Source of the DNA: a virus
Virus record (IMG/VR): IMGVR_UViG_3300021404_000005
Coordinates: 99,510-163,509 of that record
Direction: 5' to 3' (one strand)
DNA: 64,000 bases
A program made the translations under genes and the position numbers. Under the pieces are notes generated by a model, which searched no databases, was not told the DNA's origin, and was given only the letters and a program-made list of their open reading frames with translations. Positions 19,744 to 48,602 of this stretch are shown here, piece after piece; position 1 is the stretch's first letter; each line of letters opens with the position of its first letter.

Positions 19744-21357
19744 TTACGGGTTTAGCGTGCTGAACCAGGACTGGAGGTCTTGGCCCGCGCCTTGGGTGGG
19801 TGTGTCAGGAGTCAAACAGGAGTAAGGTGTTGTGTTGTAGTTGTTAGCCGTAGCAGGACTACCATCATCTTGATTCAGGATGCCGTTGCCGTTAACGTCA
19901 CCCGTACCAAGCGTCCAGCCCAGCAGTCCTATTCCCTCGCCTTGCAGGTAGCGCAAGTAATGCGGAACTGACACCGGAGCGTCACCCCAGCATTCATTTA
20001 CGTCTCCATTAGAAAAGGGAGTTCCGGTACGCAAAGTGCGCTGGCTCCATTCACCGTTAACTACAGCGGCTTCCTGGTGCTTTACCAGGTTGCCGAACTG
20101 CACATCCCAGTTAGCCCACGTGCGAGCGACACCGTCTGAAGTAGGGTGGTGGAATTCGTACACGGTTAGCTTGTCTGGGTCTGTGATGTGCCAGTCGGTG
20201 AAGTCAGAAGCAACTCGTCCCAGTGATTGTTCTCCAACGTTTCCGGTGAAGTCAGGAGTCTCTGCCCACAGCATGTTGGTGTAGCCCTCACTCCGTAGTG
20301 TCGCAACTAGTGAGTTCATGCCAACGTAGGTAGTGTCACCCGAGAAGCCACCGTTAAGCCATAGGTTCCACATTGAGTTGTCAGTCATTGTGTCGTCCGA
20401 ACGTGGCTCGTTGAACGGGTCAACGATTACTGAGTTGTCACCTGCGAAGTAAGGTGCAAGTGCGTTCCACACGTTGACGGTAGTGTGCGTGGGTAGTGGT
20501 TGGTTGTCGTGGGCAATAGCGTCTGGCTCAGTCTGGTCCACTAGTACTACCATCAGTCCGTCTGCTTGAGCATGACTAACTACTTCCCTGAGTCCGGCAA
20601 GGTAATTAGCGTCTACATCTCCAGAAGCAGGGTCCACGAGTGTGTCTTGGCTAATGAAGATGCGAACTGTATTGGCGTGCCAGGTGTTAACGCTAACGTC
20701 TTCCTGGTCTTCTGCTTGTGTTTCCCACGAGGTGTACTGTGGCTGACCTTGACCGTCAAGGTACCAGGCATTGTCAAGCTGACCGGGGTCAACGCCGTAA
20801 GGATACTGCGTGCCATTAAGGTTGATGCCTAGCGGAATGTAGTACTTGTCTCCCACAACCATGTTCAGGCCATGAAGGGACACGTCTCCGCGTGTAGTAC
20901 TGAAGCCGGGGAAAGCCCCGCCGTTCATCACCCAGTCTCCATGGAAGCTTGCACCAGAACCTTTAGCCGTTATGATTCCTGGTAGGGAGTAGGTCCAGTG
21001 CTGTGCGTTATCTACATTGCACTCCCACATCTGAGCTTCTAGCGGGTTGTGGTTAGACGAATTGTCCAGGCAGTAAGCACCACCGCTAGCCCTCATGGTG
21101 AGAGTTCCGTCTAGTGACAAGTTCCACTGCTGCTCGTTAGTACCATTGCAAGTCTCTCCTGCCACAGCAACGCCGTTCTTAGGCGTACCCGTAAGGCAGT
21201 GCCCGCCACTTGTGATGGTGCCCCATGACATGGAATTAACGGGCTTGAAATGGAGCTTAGGACTCTTGTGCGACGGAGCTGAGTACGCTGGTGCGGCAGC
21301 GAATACCGATAGTAGTACGGTAGGCAGCAAAGCTGCCGCAAGCCAGCGTATCTTCAT
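19744..21357 (-). CDS. Secreted GH5-family glycanase with ricin-type lectin domain
   Basis: 537 residues. Signal peptide 1-26 (cleavage near AYSAPSH). Residues ~45-135 form a ricin-B/CBM13 lectin with QQW and AQHW repeats. The rest is a TIM-barrel glycanase of GH5 type: TVRIFISQD, VIVDPFNEPRSD (acid/base Glu in NEP), YEFHHPTSDG, VVNGEWSQ (nucleophile Glu) and a final GWTLG. Predicted exported beta-glucanase/cellulase. Follows the glycosyltransferase gene in the same operon order; it could trim or release the polymer, or degrade host surface glycan. Confidence 0.8.
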   Translation of the reverse strand: MKIRWLAAALLPTVLLSVFAAAPAYSAPSHKSPKLHFKPVNSMSWGTITSGGHCLTGTPKNGVAVAGETCNGTNEQQWNLSLDGTLTMRASGGAYCLDNSSNHNPLEAQMWECNVDNAQHWTYSLPGIITAKGSGASFHGDWVMNGGAFPGFSTTRGDVSLHGLNMVVGDKYYIPLGINLNGTQYPYGVDPGQLDNAWYLDGQGQPQYTSWETQAEDQEDVSVNTWHANTVRIFISQDTLVDPASGDVDANYLAGLREVVSHAQADGLMVVLVDQTEPDAIAHDNQPLPTHTTVNVWNALAPYFAGDNSVIVDPFNEPRSDDTMTDNSMWNLWLNGGFSGDTTYVGMNSLVATLRSEGYTNMLWAETPDFTGNVGEQSLGRVASDFTDWHITDPDKLTVYEFHHPTSDGVARTWANWDVQFGNLVKHQEAAVVNGEWSQRTLRTGTPFSNGDVNECWGDAPVSVPHYLRYLQGEGIGLLGWTLGTGDVNGNGILNQDDGSPATANNYNTTPYSCLTPDTPTQGAGQDLQSWFSTLNP

Positions 21358-28056: not shown

Positions 28057-28899
28057 TTAGGCGACACTCTTCCTACGCGACTTAGGCTTGTCCGCCTTAC
28101 TTGCGTCGATGGTCTGCTGGATTGCAGTCATCATGTCCGTGAAAGAGGTAGCGTCCTTATCCGCACTGATAGCCTCATCAGCCGTTACATGTGTCGGGCC
28201 ATTAGCAATCTTGGCCATGACGATATTCTCAAGGCGCTCAGCGCTCTCGTCCTTGTGCTGCGAGAAATCGAACTCGTCATCAGACAGAGTCTCGATAAGC
28301 TGGTCAGCCAGCGAGTTGTCCTTGTCCGAGAACGTGGCGCTGGGAGCCTCAAAATCAGGCCGCGTCATGTCATTGCCCCAATGAAGCTGGGACAACACCA
28401 GGTAGCCCTCATCGTCTGGCGACAGGATGGCAAGGTGAACGCTGTCGCGCATCGCGAAGCGAAGCACTCCGACCTTCCCAGCACGCTTCAGCGCCGCGTG
28501 AAGCAGCGCGTAGCCCCTGTCGCCCCCGTCACCGGGCTTGACGTGGTAGGACTTGTCGATAGCCTGAGCAGGGATGTCAGACGCCTTGGCGAAGGTGACG
28601 ATTTCCCCGCAGTGCCTCTCGTCCCCCTTGACTTCCGCTAGCTCAGCATCAGTGAGCAGGACATTGCCGCCAGGAATCTCAAAGCCACGCCCGATGTCCT
28701 CCCAGCGAACCTCGTTAAGCTCCCCCCTCTCCCGGTCAGCCTTGGCAACGCGCACGTACTCGATACGAGAGCCATCAGACTTCCGCATCATGTGCAAGCC
28801 GCCGTTCTTGTTGCTCGGGACCACTGAGCCAAGACGGACGGGAAGAGAGAAAGGACCGAAAGAAAAGACGCCTCGGAATGCGGTATGGATGATAACCAC
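28057..28899 (-). CDS. Ku-family DNA-end-binding protein
   Basis: 280 residues from GTG 28899. The N-terminus RGVFSFGPFSLPVRLGSVV matches the bacterial Ku start (S/T-FGLVxVPVKL). Then VLLTDAELAEVKGDER, IVTFAKASDIPAQAIDKSYH, YALLHAALKRAGKVGVLRFA and MRDSVHLAILSPDDEGYLVL follow the Ku core in order. The acidic/basic C-terminal tail (KADKPKSRRKSVA) is like those of bacterial Ku. Ku dimers thread onto DNA ends; mycobacteriophages Omega and Corndog use phage Ku with host ligase D to circularise genomes. No ligase is visible here. Confidence 0.85.
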   Translation of the reverse strand: MVIIHTAFRGVFSFGPFSLPVRLGSVVPSNKNGGLHMMRKSDGSRIEYVRVAKADRERGELNEVRWEDIGRGFEIPGGNVLLTDAELAEVKGDERHCGEIVTFAKASDIPAQAIDKSYHVKPGDGGDRGYALLHAALKRAGKVGVLRFAMRDSVHLAILSPDDEGYLVLSQLHWGNDMTRPDFEAPSATFSDKDNSLADQLIETLSDDEFDFSQHKDESAERLENIVMAKIANGPTHVTADEAISADKDATSFTDMMTAIQQTIDASKADKPKSRRKSVA

Positions 28900-28926: not shown

Positions 28927-30693
28927 TTAGTTACCCGGACGCAACCCGAGCGTGCGCAGCTCGCTCATGGGGTAACGGTAGGTGTAGGGTTCACCATCGT
29001 TTCGCTCAACTCGACGGTCGTTCTCAGCGTAGAAGCTAACAATGGGGTTGGTAACCCGGTCACCGAATTCCACTCCCGTCACGTGATAGCGCATAGAACC
29101 GTTGAAACGGATGACATCTCCGACTACGGGCACCCAACTGGAATTCGCTCCGGGAATGACGCCAACTAGTCCTGCCTCCCGTAGTTCAGGCATAGTGCGC
29201 TCGAATACGTAGTTGCCGCCTAGAACGCGAAAGCGGACACCGCGCCCTACCAATTGGTCAGAAGTACCGACCACCTCAAAAACCGTATTGGCACTCATGC
29301 TGCTGTCGATGTGAGTTGTAGCGCGGTTACACCTGAAATTGTCTCCCACCTGTAGGTCGGTGTCAGGAACGTTAGCCGGGGCAACATCTTCCCTGTCAGT
29401 CCGTCGCATGCCTAGCGCTCGCAAGCGGGCCACGCGACGCGTGTAAGCACCATCGGGGTTAGCAGCCGTCGTAAGGCGGACGTTGGGGTTCGGCCGACCA
29501 TCGTCATCGAAGACCGTAGTGTCCTGCGTAACGTGGTCCACCGTGAAAACGGTGATGTCGGTAGGGTCGTTACCTGAAAGGCCGTTAGGCAACTCGATAA
29601 CATCACCAGCACTCGGGATGTAGAACTGCGGTAGCATTTGCAGTTGCTCCTCAGTGGCACGAACAAGCCCGTTAGAGCGCATCCACGAAAGACTACGCGT
29701 ATAGGCCATTCCACCCTGGGAGTCAGTGAACGCAAAGCTAGCATGGTCTAGGCTGCTAGGAGTGCCCACGCTAGGCGTAACCTGCATAATGCGGCACGGA
29801 CCCGCTGCGAATTGCGGAATCATCACGTAGTCGCCCTCAGACGGCACGTAATCCGTTGTGGCAGCAAGAGCTTCAGCGAACTGAAGTGCCCGCTCTTCAG
29901 CCTGGGCTTCCGCGCGCTCGTTCCTGATACGGTCTGTCTCAGCCACCAAGTTACGAGATTGCCGAACCATGTTCGTGAAGATAGCAGGTGCAGGGTTGAT
30001 TGCGCGGGAAGCGCGAGACAGATTCTCTCGCGCACTCCGGACAATGTACTTACACTCTTCCATGTACGTTACGCTAATATCCTCTTCGTTGAGGTAACCA
30101 ACGGCTTCCCGGAGAGAGCTAAGAGCGCGCTCCATCTGCGTGATGGAGCTGTCAACCTGCGCACGCACTTCGCGCTTGCGCTCCTCAAGCTCAGTCTTAA
30201 GCCGCTCGACAAGAGGCTGCTGGATAGCAAGACGGGGCATCTCATTTCCTTCCGGATAGTAGTTAATGTTCCACGACAAGCGGTTCAGACCGCTAGTGTT
30301 ACTGTTGTATGCGTTGACGGTGTAAGGCTCAGTGCGGCCTATGGTTGCGGGTATCGCATCATTGCCGCTGTTCCTGCTTGTACGGATTCGGCCACCGCTA
30401 GCGTAACCGCGATAGGGTGTAGGAGTTGCCCATTGGATACCACCTATAGGCTCAGACTGATTACGACCTGTAGGGGAACGGTGAGAACTATCACCGTTTA
30501 GGTAATCACGTAGTTCCAACTGCTCTGGAGTTAGCGCGTGGATGTGGCCGTTATCATCAGCGAAGCCGTAGTCTTGCGGATATCCTCCGCTGTTTTGAAT
30601 ACGTTCGCGAATAGCCGTAAGCGCAGCTAGTGCTTCTAGCGATTGTGTATCCCGCCGTTGTTCTTCGCTATCGTCAGGGCGTCGTCTCGGCAT
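28927..30693 (-). CDS. Large multidomain protein with four SH3-like GD repeats
   Basis: 588 residues from ATG 30693 (GGAGGTGA upstream). Disordered N-terminus (to ~130), a coiled coil (about 160-270), then four ~70-80 residue repeats, each beginning P-x-x-GD-x-I/V (YVPSEGDYVMIP, YIPSAGDVIELP, LQVGDNFRC, WVPVVGDVIRF) and ending in a motif like YTRRVARLRALGM. The same domain occurs in the amidoligase and amidotransferase proteins at 44-48 kb. Possibly a binding scaffold; function unknown. Confidence 0.65.
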   Translation of the reverse strand: MPRRRPDDSEEQRRDTQSLEALAALTAIRERIQNSGGYPQDYGFADDNGHIHALTPEQLELRDYLNGDSSHRSPTGRNQSEPIGGIQWATPTPYRGYASGGRIRTSRNSGNDAIPATIGRTEPYTVNAYNSNTSGLNRLSWNINYYPEGNEMPRLAIQQPLVERLKTELEERKREVRAQVDSSITQMERALSSLREAVGYLNEEDISVTYMEECKYIVRSARENLSRASRAINPAPAIFTNMVRQSRNLVAETDRIRNERAEAQAEERALQFAEALAATTDYVPSEGDYVMIPQFAAGPCRIMQVTPSVGTPSSLDHASFAFTDSQGGMAYTRSLSWMRSNGLVRATEEQLQMLPQFYIPSAGDVIELPNGLSGNDPTDITVFTVDHVTQDTTVFDDDGRPNPNVRLTTAANPDGAYTRRVARLRALGMRRTDREDVAPANVPDTDLQVGDNFRCNRATTHIDSSMSANTVFEVVGTSDQLVGRGVRFRVLGGNYVFERTMPELREAGLVGVIPGANSSWVPVVGDVIRFNGSMRYHVTGVEFGDRVTNPIVSFYAENDRRVERNDGEPYTYRYPMSELRTLGLRPGN

Positions 30694-30901
30694 CATTCAC
30701 CTCCAGGTCAAACTTCTCGTCACGACCACACGTAACGCATGCGCCAATCAGGTATTCCTTGAACCCCGCACTGCCCGCATTACGCACATCCTTGCCCATT
30801 GACGCCCATGCATGACGCCGTTCTTTCTTGGGCAGGTCGCTGCGATTACCGCAAGTTACTGGTGCCGACTGCGAAAGCGGGAAGTGATTGAGGTCCACCA
30901 T
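30674..30901 (-). CDS. Small zinc-binding protein
   Basis: 75 residues. VTCGNRSDLPKKERRHAW and GACVTCGRDEKF give four Cys. Overlaps the upstream gene by 46 bases; a later start is possible. Confidence 0.55.
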   Translation of the reverse strand: MVDLNHFPLSQSAPVTCGNRSDLPKKERRHAWASMGKDVRNAGSAGFKEYLIGACVTCGRDEKFDLEVNDAETTP

Positions 30902-34222: not shown

Positions 34223-34489
34223 CTACCCTCCTAGTTGGTGAGCGCCCTCTTCAATAAGAGCTTGGACCATTGTTGCCGAGTTATCCTCGTAGTATTCGCC
34301 TAGTAGCCATCGCTTGAGCATTCCCGCGCTGACTTCAGGAGTAACAGGCCCCAAGTCGAATAGCTGGACAATGAACCATGCGAGTACTTCTGCCGCTGCG
34401 TCCTTGTCACGCTTACCAGTTAGGATGTCTACCTGAGCTTGAGCTACTTGCAAGGCATCAATAACATAGCGGTTACGGTGGAAGGTCAC
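34223..34489 (-). CDS. Hypothetical helical protein
   Basis: 88 residues, all-alpha (DALQVAQAQVDILTGKRDKD). ATGA overlap with the SsgA-like gene. Not recognised. Confidence 0.55.
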   Translation of the reverse strand: MTFHRNRYVIDALQVAQAQVDILTGKRDKDAAAEVLAWFIVQLFDLGPVTPEVSAGMLKRWLLGEYYEDNSATMVQALIEEGAHQLGG

Positions 34490-34947
34490 AGCGTGTCGCT
34501 TTCTCCCAGGATGGCGGCTAGTCCCTCATCCATGTGCAGGTACTCTAGCTCCTCACCTACAGGCACCAGCGTGTAAATGTCGTCAACGAAAGCATTAACC
34601 AGCTTCTCGTTCATGACGAAATTGGCAACGCCATAAGGCGATGTGAGCGTCATGGAAATGAGCTTGCCCGCACCAGTTAGTGAGAACATGGAACTCTTGT
34701 CCTGAATCAGGCCAGCAGGCCCAATCTTAACGTCTCCGTCACCACTGAGCTGGGTCAGCCCGCTCTTCAGCAGCTCTCGCGAAAATGTCCACACCACGGC
34801 CCCGTCAAGACCCGTGTTGAACGTAACCTCTACAGCGTAGGGGTCAGCAGTCGTGTAAACGAACTCAGCGCTAAGAACTACAGCAGCTTCGTCCATCATG
34901 AGACGAACGGGGACACTCTTACGCACGACAACAGGACTACTCATCAT
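34486..34947 (-). CDS. SsgA/SsgB-like sporulation-cell-division protein
   Basis: 153 residues. FVYTTADPYAVEVTFNTG, VVWTFSRELLKSGLTQLSGDG, DVKIGP, MTLTSPYGVANFVM and FVDDIYTLVPVGEELEYLHM follow the SsgA-like protein family block by block, including the hallmark TADPYAV. In Streptomyces these proteins (SsgA, SsgB) recruit FtsZ and control sporulation septation. A phage copy could redirect host division or development during infection. It is the best host marker in the window. Confidence 0.85.
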   Translation of the reverse strand: MMSSPVVVRKSVPVRLMMDEAAVVLSAEFVYTTADPYAVEVTFNTGLDGAVVWTFSRELLKSGLTQLSGDGDVKIGPAGLIQDKSSMFSLTGAGKLISMTLTSPYGVANFVMNEKLVNAFVDDIYTLVPVGEELEYLHMDEGLAAILGESDTL

Positions 34948-44041: not shown

Positions 44042-44070
44042 CCACGCGGGGCGTGGGGTTATTCCGGCTA
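44042..44070 (-). promoter_or_regulatory. CCGGAATAACC motif and CCACGC hairpin
   Basis: Right after the amidotransferase stop: TAGCCGGAATAACC, then a 6-bp stem CCACGC/GCGTGG with 3-base loop (44042-44056). Another case of the GGAATA motif followed at once by a hairpin; here the start codon lies further downstream. Confidence 0.45.
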
Positions 44071-45702
44071 GTCAGAGCCAACCTCAGCCTCAGCCTCGTC
44101 AGCCATGGCCAGTACCTCAGCCGCGACTTCATCGGCAATCTTCTCTAGCTCGGCTTGCGTCATGGGCACGTCGCCACTGTCCTTGAAGATAGCAGGAGCA
44201 GCCGGACGCATGACCAGCTTGATTTCCGCACGTCGCCAGTTGTCGAGACTGTCACTCACAATGGACTTACCGCTCTCGCTCTTAAGCGACACGCGGCCAT
44301 CCTTAATCTCGACAACAGTGCTAACGCCCTTAGGCCACTCACGGATACCTAGCCTTACACGGTCACCCACCATAGGCTCATACACGTTGGGAAGCACGTC
44401 CTCAAACGTGATGTCGTCATCTGGCAGGCAACCAGACTCACCACACCACACCTGACACGAGCAACCCCACGACTCGCCGCACGTCAGCTCAAGAAACTCC
44501 CCATACGATAGCTCTCCTGCCTTGAATGCCAGGTGTGCAGCCTCCTTTTCGTCAGGTGAGCAAATCGCAGGTGAATCAGTGGCACTATCATCAGTACCCT
44601 CTAGCAGCGCGCGGTCTTGCGCCAACATGCGACGCATCCACTCAGGCTCCCAGCCATCATCACGCGACCGCGCGGGAACCTGACTGCCAGCAGGAGTGAA
44701 GCAACTGCACTCATCGTCTGTCATGTAGCAATCCTGGCACGAGTCACACGCGCCACAGATGAGGGTAACAACGTCTACCCTAGGCTGGCCACACAAGCAG
44801 CACGTGATGTCTTCGCGCTCACTACCACCCTCCTCAGCATCGCGGAACTGCGTGCCAAGCCCGCATGTGTCAGGCGCACTACTAGCCCAACCGTCATCAC
44901 TGCGCGTCCACTCGCCCGTTTTGTAGTCCCACGTCTGGCCGACGTAGGCCGACCTGCGAGGAACCACGTAAGCGCTGTTGCTGTGCCACGCACCTTCACG
45001 TGTCCAGATGCCGGCGTCCTCGTTGTAAATCTTGTACTCCCACGGAGCACCAGCAGCACGAGCAGCAGGCGACATAGCCTCAGGGTTAACGGTGATAATG
45101 GCAATCTTGTTACCCCCGCCTAGGTAGGCTTCAATTTTCTTGACGCCACGCTTAGACCAAAGGCTTGCAGGCTGCCTGAACTTGGCCTTGATAAGGTCGC
45201 TCGGGTCCTTAACCCTAAGCACACCCTTAAGCAAGTCCGGCATAAGGACTTCCGCGAAGATTCGCGTGTCACTACGCCAGTCACCAGCGTGCGGAGAAAA
45301 GAAAACACCGTTGTGACAAAGCACCGTCTTATCGTCGGCACCGTTACCACTCCAGTTAGTGTCAAAGGGATGACAACCACGCGTGTCCTCAACACCGCCA
45401 GTAGCGAAACGGCTATGGAACATCGCCGGTGTCCCCGGATTGTCCTTACGCAGCTCACAGAAGCGCAGTGCCAGCTCATAGCAGGCATCCACGTTAATCA
45501 CGTTCTGCGTAAAGAACGTACCAGGCTTAGCCTTGGACTCACGGGTTTCGGTGAACGCCTTGCCAATAGCCTTTTCGACCACTAGCGTCCCATCGTTAAG
45601 GACAATGGCGAATCCACAACCATCGGGGTTGGACTGAATACCCTCACTCAGTTCATCATAGTCAGGCTGGACATTCGGGGGATAGAAGCTAAGTAGGCAC
45701 AT
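44068..45702 (-). CDS. Class II glutamine amidotransferase with zinc sites and SH3-like tail
   Basis: 544 residues. The N-terminal Ntn-hydrolase domain begins MCLLSFYPP, so Cys2 would be the nucleophile after Met removal; DGCGFAIVLNDG, FHSRFATGG, CHPFDTNW, VLCHNGVF, SDTRIFAEVL match class II glutaminase blocks. Residues ~310-345 and ~410-430 hold many Cys (CCLCGQPRV, CGACDSCQDC, CSCQVWCGESGC). A YEPMVGDRVRLG module ends it. In amidoligase gene clusters such GATases are expected to supply or transfer ammonia. Leader is strongly structured. Confidence 0.8.
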   Translation of the reverse strand: MCLLSFYPPNVQPDYDELSEGIQSNPDGCGFAIVLNDGTLVVEKAIGKAFTETRESKAKPGTFFTQNVINVDACYELALRFCELRKDNPGTPAMFHSRFATGGVEDTRGCHPFDTNWSGNGADDKTVLCHNGVFFSPHAGDWRSDTRIFAEVLMPDLLKGVLRVKDPSDLIKAKFRQPASLWSKRGVKKIEAYLGGGNKIAIITVNPEAMSPAARAAGAPWEYKIYNEDAGIWTREGAWHSNSAYVVPRRSAYVGQTWDYKTGEWTRSDDGWASSAPDTCGLGTQFRDAEEGGSEREDITCCLCGQPRVDVVTLICGACDSCQDCYMTDDECSCFTPAGSQVPARSRDDGWEPEWMRRMLAQDRALLEGTDDSATDSPAICSPDEKEAAHLAFKAGELSYGEFLELTCGESWGCSCQVWCGESGCLPDDDITFEDVLPNVYEPMVGDRVRLGIREWPKGVSTVVEIKDGRVSLKSESGKSIVSDSLDNWRRAEIKLVMRPAAPAIFKDSGDVPMTQAELEKIADEVAAEVLAMADEAEAEVGSD

Positions 45703-45866
45703 ATTACAGACCTCTTAAGTAGGAATTGCGGCGCATCGCAGCGCACGCGCGAATTGACAAGGCGCACACGAGTTAGGCAGCGGGGTCTAGGCTGCCGTGC
45801 GGGGGACGGTGCATCTCGTGTGCGCCCTGCCAAGTATTACAACAGACCCGGTAGAGCGGCTATTCC
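45703..45866 (-). promoter_or_regulatory. Structured leader before the amidotransferase gene
   Basis: GGGAATAGCC follows the amidoligase stop and TAATACT (45839-45833) may be a -10 box. From near 45826 the leader folds: a perfect 12-bp stem at 45826-45815/45772-45761, extendable to 19 pairs (two G-U) out to 45833/45754. Within it are a CCGT/ACGG hairpin and a 6-bp GGCAGC/GCTGCC hairpin, a three-way junction. A GC-rich hairpin (about 45729-45748) and AAGAGG before the ATG follow. Resembles a riboswitch or attenuator. Confidence 0.55.
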
Positions 45867-48164
45867 CTAGAACAGCTCTGCCTCAACGGTTTCCTCCGAC
45901 GAATCATGACGGGACAAGAACTCCGCAAACGAGAGCAGTTCATCCGATGTCATCCACTCGCGACGTAGCCGCCTGCGCTGTTCGCCCTGAACCTCACGCT
46001 TGGCTTCAGTCTTCTCACTCTCCTGTACGACCTTCTCAAAGGCTGCAAGGTCCGGGTACGTCTCCCGGTTTTCCAGCAGCCATGTACGGAACGCTGACCA
46101 GTCCCAGCCACCCTTAGCCACGGCGTTAGCCGTAAGCTGCCTGGTGTACTCAACACTAGCGGCCACGAACCCAACCCTGGTGCGGAACACACTAGGGTCA
46201 GTGGTGGAAGCGAAGATTCGCACTTCCAAGGTATGGCGGTTGCACGTGTTGATTGCCGAGTAACGGCTAGCAATGGTGTCGTCGGTGTCGATGCCAGTAC
46301 GCGAACGGTAACGCTCACCGCGCGACTCACGCTCAGTGCGAGCGCGTAGCTTCATCTGGTTAAGGGCATGCGCCTTTTGCGTTTCCCTATGACCATCACG
46401 GAAGCCAGCCCACTGGTCCGACCTACGCCCTGCGATGCGCTCGGCATGCGCCTGGTTTCGGTAGACGAACTTCATCCACCTGAACATGTGCGCTTCACTG
46501 GAGAAACCGTCACGACTGACGTGAACGTGAATGCCATTCTCCCGCTCGTTAACGGAAGCACCTTCACTAGCAAGCTTCTTCACAATGTCAAACGGGAATT
46601 CGGCCGTTGCCCACGCCCATGTCATGGGGTGAGTGTTCAGTTCAAATCCCGCAACACTGCCGTCGCTCTTGGGGTAGATAAGTTCCTCAGCCCTCCCAAG
46701 GTCCTTAATCAGGTCCATCTCTTCCGGAGAACAGTCTGATGTCATCTCGATTTCGATGCCGTAAAAGGTCTTAGGCTGAGGGTCGTCAGCCTTAGCCTTG
46801 AAAAGCGGTGTGGGCTTGTAGTCCCACGAGTGCAGCCCAGCGGAATCGGAAGAGTCGTCATAGCGACTGTCGCCATAACGGTCTACTCCGTCTTCATCGT
46901 AACCCTCAGGGTCGTAACCCTCATCATCGTAGCCATCGACGTTGTAGCCGTCACGGTTGTAGCCATCGGCGTTGTAGCCACTAGAGTCGTAGCCATCGGC
47001 GTTGTAACCCTCCTCATCGAATCCATCAGGGTCAAAGCCATCGACATCATAACCTATGGCAATTCCCTCGTCTTCATTACCGTCGTAAGCACCGGCGGTG
47101 TCGATAAGGGTGAAGTTCCAACTGCCGTAACGACGCGACTGCTGGCAGTGCGTCATGAGGACAAGCCCACGGTGCAGGTGCATGAGCGCGCGACCATCAT
47201 TGGTGTTATTACGCGCTTCATCCTGAGTACGTGACAGAATGGCGTAGCCATACGTCCCGCTACCGTAGACATTACGGTCGTAATGGAACGACAGTTCTTC
47301 CGCACGCTCCCCGGTAATCGGGTACCGCTCACCCGCAGGGATGACCAGCGGAGGGTTTGCATCGGCAGGCTCAGAGCCAACAGGCCCCATACCCGGACGC
47401 CTGCCGTCCGCGCGGCGCATGCCACGCTCACGCCAACGCGCAAGGTGGTGGTCATGACGAGTGCCATCGGCATTCACGATTTCCACAACGGTACGGTTCT
47501 CGTACTCATAGTGGTCCGGGCACCGACCGCACGGGCGTACGACATCAACAGTTAGCGGTGCCGGGCCATAGTAGTTCTCATAGCGCTCATTGACGGTGAT
47601 GACATCGCCAACAGCAGGCGCATAAGGCACGTTGGTCTCCTCTACAGTTGGGTCAAGCCACGAGTCAAACGACTGCCTACGCATGGGCGTACGCGAGTAA
47701 CTGCTTGGCAGCCGGTAGCCGTAATCAGTGTGCAATGTCTGCCAGTACTCTTGGTGAGCATTGTTATCGCTATCGCTATCGCTATCGTTGCTGGTACTCG
47801 TGAAGTGAATGACGTGGTGCCCGTAATCCTCGCTGGGATACAGGATGCTGTTGCTGACGCGCGTGACAGTGAAAGGTCCCGCGCCGTAAGGCGAGTTACG
47901 TGATAGTACGAACTGGTCAACAGCAACGGGAGGCTCAGGCATATCAACCTTGTGCAAGCCATACATACGCCAGTAGAAAATCGTGTCCGTAAACTCTTGC
48001 ACCTCTTCTGAGGTGTTGCGCCCACGCAAGACGACACTAGCCCGGTCACCACTGCCCACGACAGAAGCCACGCATGCGATGCCGCGCGGCACAAAGTTAT
48101 TGCCCACTGACACCAGGTCGCCAACAGACGGCGTGTAATCGCTATTAGGAGTTATGCGGGGCAT
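45867..48164 (-). CDS. Amidoligase with SH3-like modules and a 12-unit Tyr/Gly pentapeptide repeat
   Basis: 765 residues. Two GD modules at the N-terminal half (YTPSVGDLVSVG, YAPAVGDVITVN), a Cys/His patch (CGRCPDHYEYE), then twelve 5-residue units of type D-G-Y/F-D/N-x (about 369-428). Residues ~450-700 are an amidoligase: KTFYGIEIEMTSDC (start of the glutamine-synthetase-like fold), FELNTHPMTW, GIHVHVSRDG, NTCNRHTLEVRIFASTTD. Amidoligases use ATP to join carboxyl and amine groups, making peptide-like bonds on proteins or metabolites. Flanked by GATase and GGCT genes, as in the published phage/bacterial clusters. Glu-rich C-terminal helix. Confidence 0.8.
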   Translation of the reverse strand: MPRITPNSDYTPSVGDLVSVGNNFVPRGIACVASVVGSGDRASVVLRGRNTSEEVQEFTDTIFYWRMYGLHKVDMPEPPVAVDQFVLSRNSPYGAGPFTVTRVSNSILYPSEDYGHHVIHFTSTSNDSDSDSDNNAHQEYWQTLHTDYGYRLPSSYSRTPMRRQSFDSWLDPTVEETNVPYAPAVGDVITVNERYENYYGPAPLTVDVVRPCGRCPDHYEYENRTVVEIVNADGTRHDHHLARWRERGMRRADGRRPGMGPVGSEPADANPPLVIPAGERYPITGERAEELSFHYDRNVYGSGTYGYAILSRTQDEARNNTNDGRALMHLHRGLVLMTHCQQSRRYGSWNFTLIDTAGAYDGNEDEGIAIGYDVDGFDPDGFDEEGYNADGYDSSGYNADGYNRDGYNVDGYDDEGYDPEGYDEDGVDRYGDSRYDDSSDSAGLHSWDYKPTPLFKAKADDPQPKTFYGIEIEMTSDCSPEEMDLIKDLGRAEELIYPKSDGSVAGFELNTHPMTWAWATAEFPFDIVKKLASEGASVNERENGIHVHVSRDGFSSEAHMFRWMKFVYRNQAHAERIAGRRSDQWAGFRDGHRETQKAHALNQMKLRARTERESRGERYRSRTGIDTDDTIASRYSAINTCNRHTLEVRIFASTTDPSVFRTRVGFVAASVEYTRQLTANAVAKGGWDWSAFRTWLLENRETYPDLAAFEKVVQESEKTEAKREVQGEQRRRLRREWMTSDELLSFAEFLSRHDSSEETVEAELF
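46880..47059 (-). repeat. 15-bp tandem coding repeat (12 units)
   Basis: Twelve 15-bp units, each encoding DGY or DGF plus two variable acidic/Asn residues, inside the amidoligase gene. Sequence changes are mostly silent or conservative, so the repeat is kept at protein level. Confidence 0.75.
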
Positions 48165-48602
48165 TTAGCTTTCCCTCCAAGGAGACGTGTACTTGACGTA
48201 ATCGCCATCAGGAATCTTAGTGAAGCCAAAGTCTTGGGATGGTCGCACGAGGTTAGGATTGGAGACGTAACACCATGCATCAACGATGTCCCCGTTGTCA
48301 GCAGCCTGAACCTTAACCCCACGTCGCCAGTAGTTGCAGTGCGCCTCACGGTTAGGGTGATAACCCTCGTAAGTATCAAGGTACCTAAGCGCGGCGGCAA
48401 TGTCAGATTCGTGAAAGGAAACCAGGTCACCCGTAATGGTGCCCGTGCCGGGCAGAACGTAGGGAATCCAATTGCGCTCACACATCTCGTATCCGTCTAG
48501 GTAGGCAGTTCCTACGAACATGCCGCGCAAGCCCTTGATGGCATTACCCGCGCCACCTTGGGCACGCAAAGTTCCATAACAGAACAGATGAGTTGTGCGC
48601 AT
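48165..48602 (-). CDS. Gamma-glutamylcyclotransferase-like (AIG2/GGCT) protein
   Basis: 145 residues. FCYGTLRAQGGAGNAIKG is the GGCT signature; VGTAYLDGYEMCE, GTGTITGDLVSF and ALRYLDTYEGYHP (with the Glu of the catalytic region) follow. The family cyclises gamma-glutamyl amines to 5-oxoproline and releases the amine. Beside an amidoligase it would undo or proofread gamma-glutamyl links. Confidence 0.8.
   Translation of the reverse strand: MRTTHLFCYGTLRAQGGAGNAIKGLRGMFVGTAYLDGYEMCERNWIPYVLPGTGTITGDLVSFHESDIAAALRYLDTYEGYHPNREAHCNYWRRGVKVQAADNGDIVDAWCYVSNPNLVRPSQDFGFTKIPDGDYVKYTSPWRES

Follow-up and report, generated by a model that had tools for sequence, protein, structure and literature searches.

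What chemistry does a virus gain from a glutamine-synthetase-like amidoligase, a class II glutaminase and a gamma-glutamylcyclotransferase (GGCT) encoded side by side, and on what molecule would it act? Amidoligase modules are widespread in phages, where the literature consulted gives them a role in modifying the cell wall that it does not test. We examined one such locus in a 163.5-kb linear virus (IMG/VR record IMGVR_UViG_3300021404_000005; G+C 54%), of which the 64,000-nucleotide stretch analyzed here, the window, comprises bases 99,510-163,509. A first-pass annotation of the window had read the three genes as a peptide-modification module.

The phage and its three-gene locus

The record encodes an HK97-type capsid, a portal and a prohead protease (Pfam), as well as an actinophage-like terminase, and the virus is a tailed actinophage. 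An SsgA-family gene is found at window positions 34486-34947 (Pfam family; gene placed by its sequence). This family serves sporulation and cell division in Streptomyces, and its presence points to a morphologically complex actinomycete, for example Streptomyces, as the host. Phage-encoded Ku-like and RtcB genes are also present (window 28057-28899; L003:4729-5913; Pfam families, with the Ku gene assigned by sequence reading). The protein at window 19744-21357 has a signal-like N-terminus; from its sequence we assigned to it the GH5 cellulase and ricin-B lectin families, both of which Pfam detected in the window set. A sugar-nucleotide/glycosyltransferase cluster with DegT aminotransferase, epimerase and GT2 genes adjoins the structural genes (L004:10782-18773).

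The locus consists of three minus-strand ORFs, with coordinates exactly as in the first-pass annotation:

48165..48602, minus strand, gamma-glutamylcyclotransferase (GGACT/AIG2-like), 145 aa (PF06094, E 7.5e-16)
45867..48164, minus strand, amidoligase (glutamine-synthetase-like), 765 aa (PF12224, E 8e-6; phrog_22302, E 5e-33)
45754..45833, minus strand, conserved hairpin in the ligase-glutaminase gap, with an outer stem of 19 bp (sister comparison, folding)
44068..45702, minus strand, class II glutamine amidotransferase-like protein, 544 aa (alignments, fold match, phrog_25883, E 1e-24)

The first base of the amidoligase gene is the base directly 3' of the GGCT stop codon, and a gap of 164 nt separates the ligase from the glutaminase. 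No DNA near-matches to this region were found among phages. A 181-kb sister virus carries the trio in identical gene order, and all three genes are under purifying selection between the two phages (dN/dS 0.23 for the cyclotransferase, 0.21 for the amidoligase and 0.13 for the glutaminase), which argues against a chance arrangement. The gene families named in the first-pass annotation were borne out by Pfam, PHROG, motif and fold matches. The catalytic residues, whose absence from an alignment it had named as grounds for refutation, are present, and the motifs are intact in all three genes. Taken together with the sister trio and the low dN/dS, this conservation indicates that the genes look functional and removes the sequence-based refutation.

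The intergenic hairpin is 85% identical to that of the sister phage over 131 nt, whereas the ligase genes reach approximately 40% identity at their synonymous sites (pS 0.60). The outer pairs are kept 19/19 in both phages, and three of them have changed on both sides, in a comparison of two sequences from which covariation is not provable. Folding z-scores were -3.0 and -3.5, and a search of Rfam gave no match to the hairpin. The sister phage has extra sequence after its hairpin (L008 9166-9245), with an 18-codon reading frame that has a TTG start.

The amidoligase and its N-terminal region

The ligase scores 26.3 bits against the Pfam Amidoligase_2 model (PF12224; gathering cut-off 22) and matches phrog_2443, 'amidoligase enzyme', at E 1e-5. 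All of the Amidoligase_2 motifs were found, namely GxExE (E471/E473), DGS (D501/S503), the following glutamate (E508), HxHxS (H546/H548), YxAxN (Y635/N639) and ExRxF (E647/R649), and these residues, together with R580, are invariant in 10 of 10 aligned viral homologues. In a wider set of 191 ligases, GxExE was present in 189, HxHx[SGD] in 187 and ExRxF in all 191. The assignment rests on sequence because the AlphaFold model of the ligase (mean pLDDT 41.9, pTM 0.28) was too poor for a fold search. Sequence searches of the PDB with the ligase and the glutaminase as queries returned chance-level matches only. The fine placement of the window ligase was not drawn from the ligase tree, in which the sister-phage row was wrongly cut and the window branch is long.

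PF12224 was silent in eight actinobacterial genomes, though a profile search finds ligase genes there. The Pfam model therefore has low sensitivity towards this subfamily, and the lack of a match to it says little. Module counts based on Pfam, which misses most of the subfamily, are too low.

The ligase and its partner contain the following regions:

47925..48137, minus strand, PxVGD domain copy 1, ligase aa 10-80 (profile from the phage's own copies; putatively SH3-like)
47397..47624, minus strand, PxVGD domain copy 2, ligase aa 181-256 (profile from the phage's own copies; putatively SH3-like)
46896..47060, minus strand, eleven tandem xxG[YF][DN] pentapeptides, ligase aa 369-423 (eleven in the sister phage as well)
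46035..46835, minus strand, amidoligase catalytic core, ligase aa 444-710 (motifs invariant in 10 aligned viral homologues)
44701..44802, minus strand, 8-cysteine cluster of the glutaminase, C301-C334, probable zinc-binding region (alignment of 10 homologues)
44194..44382, minus strand, PxVGD domain copy 3, glutaminase aa 441-503 (profile; matched in the sister-phage amidoligase comparison)

Most relatives carry an array of cysteine pairs at the N-terminus, with at least seven CxxC pairs before the core in 170 of 191 related ligases. The window and sister ligases instead have two PxVGD domains and the eleven pentapeptides where this CxxC (zinc) array would be. The replacement of the family's zinc array by putative SH3-like domains and repeats is a new point. 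According to a profile search, the PxVGD domain also occurs in the C-terminus of the glutaminase and in a 589-aa protein at 28927-30696.

A pentapeptide repeat fused to phage amidoligases

The sister-phage ligase likewise has eleven pentapeptide units. A scan of 2.9 million viral contigs found 46 stretches whose DNA encodes at least four GY[DN] pentapeptides in a row. A core-only profile detected the amidoligase core in ten repeat proteins (E 4e-11 to 2e-92; L184, L186, L189, L192, L197, L199, L205, L208, L222 and L223), one of which is that of the sister phage, and a glutaminase gene is adjacent in 8/10. Two further repeat proteins, L203 and L210, seem to be truncated members of this group. 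Pfam recognizes two of the twelve repeat ligases, and in those that are full-length the motifs can be read by eye. Several are close kin, L184 being identical to L208 and others being 61-76% alike; allowing for this kinship, the sequences point to repeat-amidoligase fusions in at least three phage lineages (the window and sister phages; L197; and the L184/L186/L189 group).

The repeat is not exclusive to ligases, since comparable arrays are present in phage proteins of other kinds, a number of which bear acetyltransferase or kinase-like domains. We found no literature naming the motif. Candidate roles for the repeat are those of an acceptor, a metal-binding element, a scaffold or a spacer. One could imagine the eleven acidic, tyrosine-rich repeats as the ligase's own acceptor or tag in cis, amidated or amide-linked by the enzyme, which we consider quite improbable. 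If it were true, repeat-bearing phage amidoligases would make a modified peptide polymer or a self-modified scaffold rather than an altered cell wall. As a peptide array recurrently fused to such ligases, the repeat is a candidate substrate or scaffold that lends itself to direct testing.

The class II glutaminase

The glutaminase has no Pfam match. Its N-terminus reads MCLLSF, with M1 and C2 found in nine of 10 aligned homologues; in the tenth, from the sister phage, the cysteine codon TGC is present, but ACG occupies the expected start-codon position. R98, H130-N131-G132 and S144-D145 are kept in 10/10 aligned viral homologues. The well-modelled N-terminal part of the predicted fold finds the GlmS glutaminase 1xff as its best PDB match (probability 1.0, E 1e-5), and GlmS domains head the fold matches, followed by PurF and EgtC. 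The protein thus combines the features of class II glutamine amidotransferases: an N-terminal cysteine, the Arg/Asn-Gly/Asp residues of the glutamine site and an Ntn-hydrolase fold. Within its C-terminal cysteine cluster, C301, C304, C316, C319, C322 and C332 are invariant, and C325 and C334 occur in nine of 10 homologues.

The cyclotransferase as an optional part

The cyclotransferase scores 59.2 bits against PF06094 (GGACT; cut-off 22.8). Its YGTL motif (Y9-L12) and its candidate catalytic glutamate, E79, are both kept in the GGCT of phage LUZ24. A weak profile match to the mouse AIG2-like protein 1vkb places E79 opposite the glutamate of its LDDFE motif, and we presume the equivalent glutamate to be the catalytic residue.

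The first-pass annotation had predicted editing by the GGCT. As a general feature this did not hold: PF06094 was detected in three of 50 viral records with the ligase-glutaminase pair, the window's included, a count that is a lower bound because many records are fragments, yet records of 38-41 kb repeatedly have no GGCT. A tblastn search against phages likewise found no GGCT at 1e-5. If most relatives do without it, the cyclotransferase is not essential to the core reaction; we regard it as an optional part of the module.

The ligase-glutaminase pair in viruses, chromosomes and plasmids

A single-sequence search of viral contigs gave no match, and profile searches succeeded. From the latter we kept the best 70 of 277 chromosomal loci, all actinobacterial, and the best 80 of 430 viral loci. 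Among these, the glutaminase accompanies the ligase in 64/66 chromosomal and 72/79 viral loci with a ligase hit. Among these best-scoring loci the two ORFs most commonly overlap by 13 nt (72 of 142 measurable junctions), an arrangement suggestive of coupled translation. In Nocardia, two ligase-glutaminase pairs often stand in tandem, and one 117-kb virus has tandem pairs together with a cyclotransferase approximately 2.7 kb upstream of the first ligase. Pairing, overlap and tandem duplication are as expected for partners that work together, and the core conserved unit is the near-obligate ligase-glutaminase pair, whose members adjoin each other in nearly all of these roughly 150 loci.

The pair is also carried by mycobacterial plasmids, in one of which it adjoins DUF4192 and a large methyltransferase-domain protein. 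In actinobacterial loci it occurs with genes for Prim-Pol, SSB, DUF4192, ArdC and transposition; from these gene contexts, many of the loci look like mobile elements. Tandem pairs near mobile-element genes were observed on actinobacterial chromosomes, in Nocardia above all (L024-L093). The unit of interest is thereby narrowed to a coupled pair that also resides on plasmids and mobile-element-like chromosomal loci, with the cyclotransferase absent near most relatives and the exact residues for mutation now given.

Proposed function and alternatives

The first-pass annotation had predicted ATP-driven amide bonds on a protein, the cell wall or a small metabolite. Because of the two protein families involved, the expected chemistry would combine ammonia from glutamine with an ATP-activated carboxylate. 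The N-terminal cysteine of the class II domain would split glutamine, the glutamine-synthetase-like partner would spend ATP on converting a carboxyl group to an acyl phosphate, and the ammonia set free, or else an amine, would then react to give the amide. The acceptor would most likely be a macromolecule of the infected cell, either a protein or, as assumed in the literature, a precursor peptide of the cell wall; the substrate may thus be a peptide, as the first-pass annotation had it. The cyclotransferase would be an add-on for disposing of gamma-glutamyl-amines or recycling them, with 5-oxoproline as the product. We infer the ammonia transfer between the two proteins, the amide formation, the target and the role of the cyclotransferase. 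In favour of an amide ligase are the families and folds, the invariant motifs, the pairing, the dN/dS values and the same gene order in Marvinvirus and LUZ24, as well as published predictions of cell-wall modification (PMC5498523, PMC11945000). For a glutamine-dependent amide ligase whose acceptor is most likely a macromolecular carboxylate, we judge the chances to be evenly balanced.

The target could also lie in host takeover or counter-defence, with the pair modifying a host or defence protein instead of the cell wall. A cell-wall target is less obvious for the plasmid and mobile-element loci, and these contexts, together with the CxxC arrays that most relatives carry, put a protein target roughly on a par with it. 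The methyltransferase-domain protein and DUF4192 beside the mycobacterial-plasmid relatives, the Prim-Pol, SSB, ArdC antirestriction and DUF4192 genes of actinobacterial loci and the suitability of N-terminal CxxC arrays for macromolecular targets all point in this direction. However, the argument is one of context, in which ArdC was matched by one of 42 neighbour proteins scanned at six loci, and the chemistry is shared with the amide-ligase reading, the target alone being different. We consider takeover or counter-defence possible, if somewhat unlikely.

A gamma-glutamyl protection scheme would have the ligase attach glutamate by its side chain to an amine, with an EgtC-like glutaminase and/or the cyclotransferase removing it later, on the pattern of ergothioneine (EgtA/EgtC) or butirosin (BtrJ/BtrG) biosynthesis. 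A gamma-glutamyl amidohydrolase resembling EgtC would be compatible with the same catalytic residues, the fold matches include EgtC, and the set joins one bond-forming enzyme with two gamma-glutamyl-cleaving enzyme types. The GlmS glutaminase domains match better than EgtC, however, most relatives have no cyclotransferase and the trio adjoins no other biosynthetic genes, which leaves this scheme unlikely.

In some phages, ligases of the aminoacyl type act on the bases of DNA, and an amide ligase could in principle decorate those of this phage. The contig encodes ThyX, but no modified-base synthesis set was detected among the families listed (25 of 29 in the first list; most contig ORFs of at least approximately 125 aa, Pfam), and DNA hypermodification is very improbable. 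A degenerate or chance assembly of unrelated ORFs, to which the ligase's Pfam score barely over the cut-off might lend itself, has a practically negligible probability, the chance or pseudogene reading being ruled out by the dN/dS values, the sister-phage trio under purifying selection and motifs invariant across distant viruses.

Comparison with known systems

UFV-P2 and LUZ24 encode an amidoligase, a GAT-II, an ATP-grasp protein, a COOH-NH2 ligase and a GGCT (PMC3890496), a set named a 'peptidoglycan modification cassette' (PMC5498523) or a 'putative peptidoglycan modification module' (PMC11945000), for which cell-wall modification against superinfection or to aid lysis has been proposed (PMC5498523, PMC11945000). 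Ligase-glutaminase pairs have also been described in Marvin and OM43 phages. Iyer 2009 and Mageeney 2012 are two primary sources cited by the phage amidoligase papers. The first-pass annotation had likened the trio to clusters from comparative genomics and knew of no test in a phage. The trio was in fact already known in phages (LUZ24, UFV-P2, RIO-1-like), and in the literature consulted we likewise found no experimental test in a phage.

In the LUZ24/UFV-P2/RIO-1-like podoviruses, as in the window, Amidoligase_2, class II glutaminase and GGCT share one region, putatively early in the window, and the LUZ24 ligase adjoins or stands close before the glutaminase. The window trio is contiguous, its GGCT abuts the ligase whereas the LUZ24-type GGCT follows ATP-grasp, and the ligase architecture differs. 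A RimK-type ATP-grasp gave no match in the 163.5-kb contig, which may be incomplete (control positive in 13/14); no match to COOH-NH2_lig (PF14395) was found in the window virus, with the control silent as well. Without a RimK-type ATP-grasp, the window set is not a full LUZ24/RIO-1-type module.

The closest homologues in the annotated phage collection are gp105-gp106 of Marvinvirus (Mycobacterium cluster S; 35% and 30%), which share the ligase-glutaminase order and the C-terminal cysteine cluster of the glutaminase. Unlike the window ligase, that of Marvinvirus has a cysteine-rich N-terminus and neither PxVGD domains nor repeats. Marvin gp104 was considered as a missing GGCT and rejected, since its translation has no GGCT motif and PF06094 found no match in the one cluster S genome tested. 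In many records the Marvin-type amidoligase gene (L002:4827-6188) is annotated 'glutamine amidotransferase domain protein', the same as its neighbour.

The pairs of Nocardia, Amycolatopsis, Actinoplanes and mycobacterial plasmids are the same as that of the window, with ligase core identity of up to 46%, but are often tandem-duplicated, often have overlapping ORFs and carry N-terminal CxxC arrays. Ergothioneine EgtA/EgtC and butirosin BtrJ/BtrG each couple a ligase with a gamma-glutamyl-removing enzyme and resemble the window in joining a ligase to a partner of related fold (EgtC). Other biosynthetic genes of a small-molecule pathway such as theirs were not found adjoining the trio (ORFs, Pfam). 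Set against these systems, the gene set itself was already known, and what is new is the architecture of the ligase, the fusion of repeats to amidoligases and the conserved hairpin.
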